DNA from: Acidimicrobiales bacterium
GTDB lineage: Bacteria > Actinomycetota > Acidimicrobiia > Acidimicrobiales > Aldehydirespiratoraceae
DNA length: 40,781 nucleotides
Direction: 5' to 3'
Assembly (NCBI GenBank): GCA_029263195.1
Contig: JAJCXX010000095.1
Span: 1-40,781, forward strand
Shown here: piece after piece, positions 34,468 to 38,218 of the stretch
Layout of the letters: each line of letters begins with the position of its first letter
Numbering within the stretch: the stretch's first letter is position 1
Program-made: the position numbers and the translations under genes
The notes under the pieces: generated by a model
Told to the model about the DNA's origin: nothing
Databases searched by the model: none
What the model saw: the letters and a program-made list of their open reading frames with translations, nothing else

Positions 34468-35067
34468 ATGAGCGATTCGACTCAACCCGGCGAACTCTAC
34501 GGCCGCGAGTCGCGTGCTCTTCAGGATCAGTTCGACAGTCGACGTTTGGCCGACCGCCTGGCGGAGATCACGCTCAACGACCGACTCGACGACAACCTTC
34601 GAGGTTTCATCGAGGCCGTTTCGTCCTTCTATCTGGCGACCGTCGACTCCGAGGGATTCCCCGACGTGTCTCACAAAGGTGGCGATCCGGGTTTCGTCGT
34701 GTGCCCCGACGACCGCACGATTCTGATCCCGAGCTTCGATGGCAATGGCATGTATCGCAGCCTGGGCAACATCATCAACAATGGTCGCGTCGCCATGCTG
34801 TTCGTGAGCTTCGGCCCCGACGCCCAACGCTGGCGGGTGCAGGGCCATGCAGTTGTTCACACGTCGGGCCCCGTGGTCGACCGTGTGCACGGTGCCGAAG
34901 CCGTTATCGAGGTCACCGTCGGCCGGACCTTCCCCAACTGCCCGAGATACCTGCCCGATCACGCCACGGGAGCGCCGTCGGACGACACGCCGCGACCAGG
35001 AGTGGTGCCGCCGGTAGCTGAATGGAAGACGTGGGAGATGTTCAGCGAGGTTCTTCCCGATAGGTGA
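34468..35067 (+). CDS. pyridoxamine 5'-phosphate oxidase-like flavoprotein
   Basis: A 199-aa protein of the PNPOx-like split-barrel fold. Seen: AVSSFYLATVDSEGFPDVSHKGGDPGFV, the FMN-phosphate contact strand, then LIPSFDGNGMYRSLGNIINNGRVAMLFVSF, and RWRVQGHAVV. It resembles proteins annotated as pyridoxamine-5-phosphate oxidase-related FMN-binding; in actinobacteria many such split-barrel proteins use F420 instead. Cofactor cannot be decided by eye. Its 3' end overlaps the class V aminotransferase gene by 4 bp. Confidence 0.82.
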   Translation: MSDSTQPGELYGRESRALQDQFDSRRLADRLAEITLNDRLDDNLRGFIEAVSSFYLATVDSEGFPDVSHKGGDPGFVVCPDDRTILIPSFDGNGMYRSLGNIINNGRVAMLFVSFGPDAQRWRVQGHAVVHTSGPVVDRVHGAEAVIEVTVGRTFPNCPRYLPDHATGAPSDDTPRPGVVPPVAEWKTWEMFSEVLPDR

Positions 35068-36374
35068 TCCGCGAGCGGCTCACGGCCGCTGCGGTCGACT
35101 ACGTTGCGCACATGACCTCCAAGTCCGAACTGTTGCCAGCGTTCGATGTCGGGTTCGTTCGTAGTCAGTTTCCAGCGTTCAGCCATCACGAGATCGGTCG
35201 CTGGGCTCACCTCGAGAACGCTGGCGGCAGCTATGTCCCGCGGCAGGTGATCGACCCGGTGACGGCTCTGTTCAGCAATCACAAGACCCAACCGAATTGG
35301 GATTTCGCTGCGTCACTGCGGGCCACGGAGGCGATTGATCATTCGCGGGACCTGATGGCGGCGACCTTCAATGCGCAGCCCGATGAGATCCACTTCGGCC
35401 CGTCCACCTCTCAGAACACTTACGTTCTGGCGAGATCGTTGCGCCACGGCTGGAACGATGGTGATGAGGTCATCGTCACCAATCAGGATCACGAAGCCAA
35501 CATCGGGGCTTGGCGTCGGTTGGCCGAGACAGGAATGGTGGTGAAGGAGTGGTCGGTCGACCCAGCCACGGGGATGCTCGACATTGCGGAACTGGAGTCT
35601 CTGATCACGGAGCGGACCCGACTCGTGGCACTGACCCACGCCTCGAATGTGGCGGCGACGGTGAACCCTGTCGGGAAGGTCGCCGAGTTGGTACACACCG
35701 TCGGTGGACTGTTGGTGATCGATGGGGTGTCCTACGCCCCTCACTATCCGATCGACGTGAAGGCGCTCGATTGCGACGTCTATCTCTACAGCGCCTACAA
35801 GACCTACGGACCCCACGTCGGGATGATGTACACGAAGAGAAGCGTCCTCGAATCGGCCCACCACGAGGGCCACTTCTTCAACGAGTCGCATCTCTCGGCC
35901 CGGCTGACCCCGGCCGGCCCGGACCATGTCGAGGTTGGTGCCTGTGGTGGAGTTGTCGACTACTACAACGCGGTGCACGACCATCACTTCGGTGGTGGAG
36001 GGTCGCAGACGCAGGTCGAGCGAATCAGCGATGTCTTCGACTTGTTTGGGGTCCAAGAGCAGTTCCTCATGACGCCACTTGTCGAGTTCCTCGCCGATCG
36101 CGACGATGTGCATCTCGTCGGAAGTCGGTCAACCGATCACTCGAAGCGTGCCCCGACCCTTGCGTTCCACAGCGGCAAGGTCGCGTCGGCTCGAATCTAC
36201 GACGCGTTGATTTCTGCCGAGGTCTCCTGTGGCCACGGAAACTTTTACGCCCACCGACTCGTGACCGCTCTAGGGCTCGACCCCGACGACGGTGTGGTGC
36301 GTCTGTCGATGGTGCACTACAACACGCTCGAGGATGTCGAGCGTGCACTCGCTGTTCTCGACGAGATTCTCTGA
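35064..36374 (+). CDS. class V aminotransferase, cysteine-desulfurase-like
   Basis: A 436-aa PLP enzyme of the class V fold (SufS/CsdA-like family). FGPSTSQNTYVLAR, TNQDHEANIGAWRRLA, LVALTHASNVAATVNPVGKVAELVH, Asp220 (VIDGVSYAPH) and the PLP lysine K246 in YSAYKTYGPHVG are all in place. I do not see a mobile loop with the catalytic Cys typical of cysteine desulfurases, so it may belong to the related aminotransferase-like subgroup. The GTG at 35064 overlaps the upstream stop; ATG 35112 (residue 17) is an alternative. Convergent with the DsbA-fold gene. Confidence 0.88.
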   Translation: MIRERLTAAAVDYVAHMTSKSELLPAFDVGFVRSQFPAFSHHEIGRWAHLENAGGSYVPRQVIDPVTALFSNHKTQPNWDFAASLRATEAIDHSRDLMAATFNAQPDEIHFGPSTSQNTYVLARSLRHGWNDGDEVIVTNQDHEANIGAWRRLAETGMVVKEWSVDPATGMLDIAELESLITERTRLVALTHASNVAATVNPVGKVAELVHTVGGLLVIDGVSYAPHYPIDVKALDCDVYLYSAYKTYGPHVGMMYTKRSVLESAHHEGHFFNESHLSARLTPAGPDHVEVGACGGVVDYYNAVHDHHFGGGGSQTQVERISDVFDLFGVQEQFLMTPLVEFLADRDDVHLVGSRSTDHSKRAPTLAFHSGKVASARIYDALISAEVSCGHGNFYAHRLVTALGLDPDDGVVRLSMVHYNTLEDVERALAVLDEIL

Positions 36375-36402: not shown

Positions 36403-37032
36403 TCAGGGCCTGTCGCCGAACTCCGGAGCTTCGGTTCGGGTGCGCTTGAGCTCCCAGAAACCGTCGACGTTCATCATGGCGGTCAGGGCGTCCCACATGG
36501 CGAGGGAATCCTCGGTCGGTGGAACCCGTGTGATGACCGGGCCGAAGTATCCCTGTTTCACGCCTTCGCGATTCTCGATTGCGATGATCGGAGTGCCCAC
36601 GTCGTCGCCGGTGAGCTCCAGGCCTGAATCCATTCGAGTTCGGATCTCGTCGTCCCACTTCTCGTCGTCGAACGCCTCGGCATGCTTCGGGTCTGCACCG
36701 ATTGTCTCCACGATCTCCAGAGCAGTGAAATCGCGCGATTGGTCGTGGTGGATTCGGCGGCCGCACTCCCAGTAGAAGTCGAAAGCGGCTTCGTTGCCGT
36801 CGGCGTCGCGTATCGATTCCATCACCCTCAGCAATCGATGCGTGAAATACACGACCTCGTAGTGCTCGGAGTCTTCGTCGGGTTCGTTCTTGAAGAACAA
36901 ACTGATGGGTTGCCATGTGATGTGGAGCCCTCGGGCGGGCATTACCTCGTCGACGACCCAACGGGCCGTCACCCAACACCACGGTCAAATGGGATCAACC
37001 CAGAATTCAACTTCAGTAGCTGTTTTGGTCAC
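36403..37032 (-). CDS. candidate selenoprotein: mycothiol-dependent reductase (Rv2466c-like), UPWC active site
   Basis: A DsbA-fold reductase of 209 aa if the in-frame TGA at 36987-36985 is read as selenocysteine. Starting at GTG 37032 the N-terminus is VEFWVDPI-U16-P17-W18-C19-WVTARW, aligned with FWFDPLCPWCW as I recall it for Mycobacterium Rv2466c, and the C-terminus ends ELKRTRTEAPEFG, also as in Rv2466c; that protein is about 207 aa. Other matching parts are GDDVGTPIIAI and GYFGPVITRVP. The start lies 7 nt after the stop of the frhB-like gene on the same strand, so an N-terminal extension is expected. The alternative GTG at 36972, after the TGA, would remove strand 1 and both active-site residues. 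A SECIS-like hairpin follows the TGA. A sequencing error or a decayed gene are the alternatives. Confidence 0.8.
36952..36987 (-). promoter_or_regulatory. TGA codon with candidate bacterial SECIS hairpin
   Basis: On the minus strand the TGA (36987-36985) is followed by 14 nt and then an 8-bp stem, GACGGCCC (36970-36963) with GGGUCGUC (36959-36952), fully paired with one G-U, closed by the loop GUU. The loop starts 23 nt after the TGA and begins with G. This fits the known bacterial SECIS rule: stem-loop within the coding sequence, loop 16-37 nt after UGA, G in the first two loop positions. The sequence is seen directly; SelB recognition is inference. Confidence 0.65.
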
Positions 37033-37039
37033 GGCTCAT

Positions 37040-38218
37040 TCAACCCCGGGACTTGGCGGGTATTCCAACTCGGGCGGCTCCTTGAGCCCATTCAGGCCAT
37101 CGCTCTCGGCTTTTCTGAGCGAGACGATGGAGCAGCGCTATTGCAGCGGGGTCGTCGTCGCCGGGTCGGGTCTCGATCACACCGTCGGCGACCATCGCGT
37201 CGATCACCGCCCGGCCCAGTTCGGTGCGAATGATCGTGAGTGTCCAGTCGGTCTCGTTTCCGATACCGCCGGTGGAGATGTCGGCGTGTTCGGCCGCGAA
37301 ATCTGGGCAGTGGAGACAGCCGGTGCGAGTCCAGGCGTGGCATTCCTTCAGATTGATCTCGTGGTATCCGCCGTCCTTCGTCCAGATCTGAAAGACACCT
37401 TTGATGTTCATCTTGGCGATGTTGTCTCTTTTCAACCCGTACTTGACCTCGAAAAGTTCATCGAACAAGGCGTCGTCGAAGGACTTCGAGCACAGCAACC
37501 CGATGTTGAGCTTGATCGGCTTGGAGACCTTTCCGATCTTGCGGTGCCACATCACCGGCGCGACGGATGTCTGACAGCTCATCCCCACGAGAGCGAGCCG
37601 ATCGAGTCCCTTCTCGCGGGCTTCGCCGTAGGCCATGGTGTTGGCGGAGTAGGTGTATCGACTTCCTGCCCCGTTGAGCACCTCCTCGCGGTTGGAGGCC
37701 ACCATCGGATGGGCCTTCCACCCCGGGGACCCATCGGGAAGACTCTCGACCCCGCTGGTGAGAGCACCGTCGATGACGTCGTTCTCGAGGCACCATATGA
37801 GGATCGCCGATACCAAGCCTCCGTCTTGACCGGTCTCGTAGACGAAGTCCTCGGAGGCTCGGGTGAGCAGTATGTCGGAGTAGATGCCGGCCATCTCGTC
37901 GGGTTCGCGCTCACGCGCATGAAGATGCCGGTCGGCTTCGGGCTCCCACATCCTGAACCGGGGACACGCCCGTGTGCACGACGTGCAGCCCTTCTGGCCG
38001 TGGACACAATCGTCGGGTCCGAGCTCCTCTTCGAGATGAAAGGGCTGGTAGGCGCCCGGTTCGTGTTCGTAACCGATGACGTCGTGGGGACACGAAATCA
38101 CACAGCCGGCGCAGCCGGTGCAGAGACCGCTGGTGATGACCTCGGTGTGGAGTTCCTTCCATTGGTGGGTCCAGCGCTCCTTCTTCACTGCTGGAGTGGG
38201 CGTCTCGGTCGTCGTCAT
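37040..38218 (-). CDS. FrhB-like coenzyme F420 dehydrogenase beta-subunit family protein
   Basis: A 392-aa iron-sulfur flavoprotein of the FrhB/FpoF family. Two ferredoxin-type 4Fe-4S motifs at the N-terminus: C33-x2-C36-x2-C39-x3-C43-P and C78-x2-C81-x3-C85-P. The FrhB domain follows: ETGQDGGLVSAILIWCLENDVIDGAL, ALVGMSCQTSVAP, NIGLLCSKSFDD and ECHAWTRTGCLHCPDFAAEHADIS, the C-terminal cluster-binding region. Family members move electrons between F420 and Fe-S partners. The ATG at 38218 has TAGCTT 6 nt upstream. The DsbA-fold selenoprotein candidate begins 7 nt after its stop, so the two are very likely co-transcribed. Confidence 0.9.
   Translation of the reverse strand: MTTTETPTPAVKKERWTHQWKELHTEVITSGLCTGCAGCVISCPHDVIGYEHEPGAYQPFHLEEELGPDDCVHGQKGCTSCTRACPRFRMWEPEADRHLHAREREPDEMAGIYSDILLTRASEDFVYETGQDGGLVSAILIWCLENDVIDGALTSGVESLPDGSPGWKAHPMVASNREEVLNGAGSRYTYSANTMAYGEAREKGLDRLALVGMSCQTSVAPVMWHRKIGKVSKPIKLNIGLLCSKSFDDALFDELFEVKYGLKRDNIAKMNIKGVFQIWTKDGGYHEINLKECHAWTRTGCLHCPDFAAEHADISTGGIGNETDWTLTIIRTELGRAVIDAMVADGVIETRPGDDDPAAIALLHRLAQKSRERWPEWAQGAARVGIPAKSRG

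Follow-up and report, generated by a model that had tools for sequence, protein, structure and literature searches.

A gene on the minus strand of an Acidimicrobiales draft genome carries an in-frame TGA where homologs encode either the same TGA or a cysteine (Cys). The gene lies on contig JAJCXX010000095.1 of assembly GCA_029263195.1 (family Aldehydirespiratoraceae), and positions 1 to 40,781 of that contig, the whole stretch analyzed, are called the window here. Read through the TGA, the frame is predicted to encode a reductase related to Rv2466c that contains selenocysteine (Sec, U) in a U-P-W-C active site (Table 1). An earlier note on this DNA had described a frame from GTG 37032 that is intact apart from TGA 36987-36985, and translation into 209 residues confirms it. 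Specifically, the frame has a single internal TGA, and GTG 37032 is the sole in-frame start between that codon and the preceding upstream stop. The context of residue 16 is VEFWVDPI-U-PWCWVTARW. Under translation table 11, the only open reading frame listed for the gene is one of 189 residues from GTG 36972.

Table 1. Features at the reductase locus, in window coordinates
Feature	Positions	Strand	Details
Predicted Sec-containing Rv2466c-like reductase gene	36403..37032	-	GTG start; 209 residues; terminal TGA at 36405-36403
In-frame TGA, predicted Sec codon	36985..36987	-	Residue 16, in U-P-W-C; aligns with Cys of homologs
TGT codon, presumed resolving Cys	36976..36978	-	Residue 19 of U-P-W-C
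Predicted bacterial Sec insertion sequence (SECIS) hairpin	36952..36970	-	Stem columns 18-25 with 29-36; loop GUU; 22 nucleotides (nt) from UGA to loop
FrhB/FpoF-like F420-type iron-sulfur gene	37040..38218	-	N-terminal 4Fe-4S domain; 7 nt before the GTG
Class-V aminotransferase gene	35064..36374	+	Convergent with the reductase gene; 28 nt gap

Conservation of the TGA and its hairpin

The read-through protein was used to search 298 genomes of the order, 233 of which gave some match. The alignment has 101 rows, namely the window and 100 fetched stretches: the 80 best of the search, every lower-ranking listed row containing an internal TGA or TAG (11 rows), and nine more Cys rows. One row (L132), whose contig starts after the column of residue 16, is excluded from the counts. 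Among the 100 rows that reach this column, 62 have TGA, 38 have TGC or TGT, and no third residue occurs. Thus, the TGA stands where the earlier note had placed it, at the first Cys of C-P-W-C, and the alignment contains both related genomes with the same TGA and homologs with Cys. Scattered stops in close relatives were looked for as a refutation; there are none, and the same single TGA is kept. The Cys at the presumed resolving position is present in all 62 U forms. In total, the TGA form is found in at least 62 loci, in at least 59 of the 298 genomes, and in 11 families of the order. The 59 genomes represent one per species in the sampled set and are a lower bound, because the search lists best matches only.

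Other collections give a similar picture. In a contig collection from GTDB, the best 80 of 571 loci comprise 78 with TGA and two with Cys; these loci overlap with those of the order genomes, and the two sets are not independent. NCBI taxonomy places 69 of the 80 in Acidimicrobiia, three in 'Actinomycetes', and three in Actinomycetota only, with five unplaced. A sample of 396 genomes across the phylum (E 1e-30) has TGA at the site only in three loci of the order that had already been found. Seven other phylum rows flagged for TGA were rejected as Sec forms, all having Cys at the site, and three flagged for TAG were left out of the Cys/TGA reading. The distant rows of the order search marked with one TGA were likewise rejected as additional Sec forms: each of the 10 that were listed and fetched reads Cys at this column, with its TGA at most two residues from an end of the match.

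Immediately 3' of the recoded codon, the TGA forms share a predicted hairpin with an early loop G, as in a bacterial SECIS, and its covarying stem of 7-8 base pairs is absent from the Cys forms. The UGA-to-loop spacing expected in bacterial SECIS elements is about 16-37 nt. The hairpin was analyzed in a gap-free alignment of the TGA forms that covers 39 nt from the UGA and contains 41 distinct sequences. The two stem strands form standard pairs in 95.1% of cells, and pairing falls to 17-60% when the partner strand is slid by one to three columns. The covariation score is 0.219 versus 0.129 in shuffles, with 0/500 shuffles as high. In the 38 Cys genes, the same columns are 53.9% paired, which equals the shuffled mean. 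RNAalifold recovers the stem de novo in the TGA set and finds no such stem in the Cys genes, and the loop G (column 26) is invariant in the TGA forms.

The core pair of the stem joins the third bases of ACN and GTN codons. It is G-C in 51 rows, U-A in four, C-G in two, A-U in two, G-U and U-G in one each, and broken in one, with changes in families f17, f18, f28 and f59. When synonymous codons were shuffled within columns, 0/2000 shuffles reached the observed total pairing and 0/2000 reached that of the core pair; therefore, protein sequence alone does not explain the stem. In L120, a distant member, the core pair is broken and a compensatory change from C-G to G-C lies two pairs further in. 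The third positions of the non-Trp stem codons (5-8, 10 and 11) have an entropy of 0.67-0.95 bits, compared with 1.41-1.97 bits for codons 12-15; values upstream span 0 (Trp) to 1.88 bits. Among the named TGA rows within the best 80 of the 571 loci, 77/78 keep all seven tested pairs and one keeps six. Separately, one Cys homolog with TGC (L231) still has 6/7 stem positions paired, including a C-G core pair, and is possibly the product of a recent Sec-to-Cys change.

Sec machinery, family and database records

The source draft genome (3.63 Mb, 106 contigs, 94.6% complete, 3.66% contaminated) was searched for selA, selB, selC and selD, and all four are present. The selA and selB genes are adjacent on contig C69, which also carries the tRNA-Sec with anticodon tca. 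The selD gene lies on contig C84 (170181-171104) and has an in-frame TGA of its own, in the context YSHGAG-TGA-ACKLAPGE, making SelD a second predicted selenoprotein of the genome. The same kind of recoding is seen there in an unrelated protein, from a selenoprotein family that has long been known. Across the order, SelA is present in 59/59 genomes with the TGA form, compared with 183/298 overall and 124/239 of the remainder (Fisher p 4e-15, uncorrected for relatedness). SelA is not exclusive to genomes with the U form: it occurs in 21 of the 33 genomes from which a Cys row was fetched, and some of these genomes carry a U form too. With the full Sec machinery, the shared TGA, the alternation with Cys and the covarying hairpin, the proposal in the earlier note of a selenoenzyme gains support.

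The assignment to the Rv2466c family is likewise supported, both by sequence and by the predicted fold. Specifically, the protein scores 124.3 bits on the PF22234 profile (cut-off 27), spanning positions 1-180 of 180, and 30.3 bits on PF01323 (cut-off 25.6). The predicted fold is a thioredoxin fold with a helical insertion, as in solved Rv2466c. Rv2466c, also called Mrx2 (DsbA-Mrx cluster; PDB 4nxi, 4zil, 5xur), is the best match in both sequence and fold, at about 30% identity. The site is of the C-P-W/F-C type, its first Cys being replaced by a predicted Sec. Thus, the window protein differs from Rv2466c in having an in-frame UGA at the position of nucleophilic Cys19, and the window gene differs in that a SECIS-like hairpin overlaps the codons following the active site. 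According to the available text of PMC8280269, the same cluster includes Corynebacterium glutamicum NCgl2478 and NCgl2339, mycothiol-dependent reductases with a CPFC site that share a nucleophile, a resolving Cys and stress-related reductase chemistry; unlike the window protein, both are Cys enzymes.

In protein databases, the Sec forms appear to be recorded without their active site. Among the best 120 of 2077 homologs, 50 are without the motif. Of these, 45 are exactly 189 residues long, and 48 begin [M/V]TARWVV, directly past UPWCW. The other 70 are all Cys forms (55 CPFC, 15 CPWC). Two of the motif-less records were traced to TGA loci, and the start points of the rest suggest that they too are Sec forms; therefore, Sec forms appear shortened in the databases. 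The earlier note had foreseen a truncated annotation beginning at GTG 36972. Truncation is borne out, and the 189-residue frame from that codon exists, but the window protein's own record (P0002) has 179 residues and starts MPARGL.

A quick tree of 132 rows, including 32 database proteins (every third motif-bearing protein and all CPWC proteins), requires 13 changes between U and C, at least seven of them forced by the starred branches. These counts leave the direction of change undecided. The row nearest to the window is a CPWC protein, P0007 (support 88, unstarred), and the CPFC proteins fall mostly within one Cys-rich clade. Two Sec forms with UPFC, L113 and L117, sit among CPFC Cys proteins and are candidates for a separate Cys/Sec switch. 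An arrangement of another kind occurs in one genome (G235), the only one in a codon-pattern scan of L053-L152. There, a second TGA-containing DsbA-like gene, LTVFSDFL-TGA-PWCYVAAVRLDDV, lies directly downstream of the first, so that two predicted UPWC selenoproteins are encoded in tandem.

Alternative readings and the mycothiol link

Could the TGA be a real stop, with only the downstream fragment of 179-189 residues made or the gene decaying? Gene callers side with this possibility, as the 50 motif-less records attest, yet we consider it very improbable. Such a fragment would have neither the first strand nor the catalytic motif, and a covarying hairpin would have no purpose. Across dozens of species, a single internal TGA is kept and scattered stops are absent. 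Moreover, the Trp, Asp and Pro 5' of the TGA are invariant in 62/62 rows, with all four third bases used at Pro and both at Asp. Almost no weight falls on an error of sequencing, assembly or binning, be it a misread TGC or TGT or contaminating Sec genes. Although the draft assembly comprises many contigs and has some contamination, the same TGA recurs in 59 genomes and in 78 of the 80 top-ranking loci among 571, making a base-call error untenable. One of those 78 loci (L169, strain EGI L10123) comes from a record that is not labeled as a metagenome-assembled genome and may be from an isolate. All 11 sampled genomes of the window's family hold both the TGA form and SelA. Finally, an in-frame TGA that is apparently translated through might reflect genome-wide reassignment of UGA, for example to Trp, or near-cognate read-through that inserts a residue other than Sec. 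This is scarcely credible: the column alternates with Cys only (38/38 non-TGA rows), the genome encodes a tRNA-Sec whose anticodon is tca, and a structured element lies 3' of the codon. Most of the TGA-form genes terminate in TGA (42/60, two others running off their contigs), and UGA is therefore an ordinary stop in these genes as well. On the grounds of the Cys-only alternation, the stop usage and the tRNA, UGA as Trp was rejected.

We therefore favor the reading, to which we assign a probability of roughly 80%, that the internal UGA is decoded as Sec, yielding a U-P-W-C reductase of the Rv2466c family that would be recycled by mycothiol. The notion is that SelB carrying Sec-tRNA(UCA) would bind the hairpin and Sec would be inserted at the UGA, while other TGA codons, including the gene's own terminal one, would still end translation. 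As described in the available portions of PMC11841060 and PMC8280269, Rv2466c uses Cys19 as nucleophile, Cys22 as resolving residue and mycothiol as reductant. By analogy with Rv2466c and NCgl2478, the selenolate would attack either a mycothiolated protein or a disulfide, Cys19 of the window protein or mycothiol would resolve the bond so formed, and mycothiol, mycothione reductase and NADPH would regenerate the enzyme. Mycothiol as the cofactor is likewise proposed from these relatives.

Several results weigh against this reading. The outermost stem pair lies within the range of the synonymous shuffles (321/2000 as high), the window hairpin folded alone has ordinary stability (z -0.59), and no NCBIfam model matches the reductase at E 0.01. 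Among the mycothiol genes, the mycothione reductase homolog scores 582 bits on TIGR03452, below the cut-off of 635.65, and the best MshA match reaches 376 bits (cut-off 462.5). Two MshC-like genes of 402 residues each (L233 and L234, on contigs C48 and C71) reach 421 and 404 bits (cut-off 485.1), and both also exceed the CysS cut-off of 340. Finally, among the fetched stretches, some of them cut by contig ends, no FrhB gene was found next to the reductase outside the window's family (tblastn, 1e-8). On the other side, the mycothione reductase homolog reaches 624 bits on NF005884 (cut-off 501), and both MshC-like genes score better as MshC than as CysS, with a separate ordinary CysS gene scoring 447 bits as CysS and 278 as MshC. 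On these matches to mycothione reductase, MshA and MshC, it is likely but not certain that the organism makes mycothiol. A selenoprotein that relies on another donor (thioredoxin, or F420H2 via FrhB) or acts on another substrate (a peroxide, an arsenate adduct or a nitro compound) would accommodate the low-scoring MshA and MshC candidates. It would also suit the FrhB gene that precedes the reductase in 11/11 sampled genomes of the family, and the C. glutamicum relative that, in the available text of PMC8280269, accepts thioredoxin too, about 120 times more slowly. We nonetheless judge this alternative unlikely, given that Rv2466c is the best match in sequence and fold, that the U-P-W-C motif is complete and that a mycothione reductase homolog exceeds the NF005884 cut-off.

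Neighboring genes and significance

The FrhB/FpoF-like gene just upstream of the reductase is on the same strand in all 11 sampled genomes of the window's family (window counted), and the relatives are 82-87% identical to the window's gene. In ten relatives, the distance between the FrhB and reductase matches is 6 to 147 nt, with 643 nt in one. This neighbor suggests an F420 link in the window's family, where an F420-type FrhB partner in the same apparent operon might, speculatively, supply electrons or substrate. In family f27, another gene, which by eye from its sequence we take to be Zn-alcohol-dehydrogenase-like, precedes the reductase in 7/8 rows. No operon shared across the order was found: in the fetched stretches, some of them cut by contig ends, FrhB occurs in one family only and other families have other neighbors; the enzyme therefore looks like a stand-alone reductase whose neighbors differ by family. 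On the other side of the locus, a relative of the convergent aminotransferase gene is found near the reductase in two genomes of the same family. Within the window, Rfam at gathering scores gives no match and ARAGORN finds no tRNA. No second copy of the reductase was found in its own genome at E 0.001.

DsbA-like selenoproteins with UxxC have been listed since 2005 (available portions of PMC1088965, PMC2398784 and PMC13188914). The listed proteins (PF01323/COG2761; Sargasso Sea 2005, GOS 2008 DsbA 1-3) have the thioredoxin fold and UxxC in common with the window protein, which has UPWC and exceeds the PF01323 cut-off. As far as their available text goes, these lists name no Rv2466c-like subfamily and no mycothiol link (PMC1088965, PMC2398784, PMC13188914, PMC1794560, PMC5029168). 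The subfamily may already be present in part, unnamed, among the DsbA-like entries (exemplar NIP15863.1). For Frankia, the accessible part of PMC4531530 reports selenoproteins, DsbA not among them; the accessible parts of PMC9312934 and PMC12013277 contain nothing on an Rv2466c-like selenoprotein subfamily. Among the open-licence PMC papers searched, none mentions Rv2466c together with selenocysteine, a result that does not extend to other print.

If the reductase is a selenoprotein, the predicted selenoproteome would gain a reductase of the mycothiol type throughout an actinobacterial class that is widespread, and the database records suggest that annotation removes the enzyme's active site in many cases. 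A broader scenario, which we rate as rather doubtful, is that Acidimicrobiia run a selenium-based branch of a mycothiol redox network, joined in the window's family by F420. In this scenario, Sec and Cys would have been exchanged many times and the Sec enzyme would be wired to the FrhB-type F420H2 oxidoreductase of its operon. If true, deazaflavin electrons would be coupled to selenol–disulfide chemistry. Rv2466c, the Cys relative, is an activator of antitubercular prodrugs (available text of PMC11841060), which makes the selenolate chemistry of this fold of wider interest. Finally, natural Sec/Cys pairs, repeatedly switched among relatives, provide material for asking what Sec buys.
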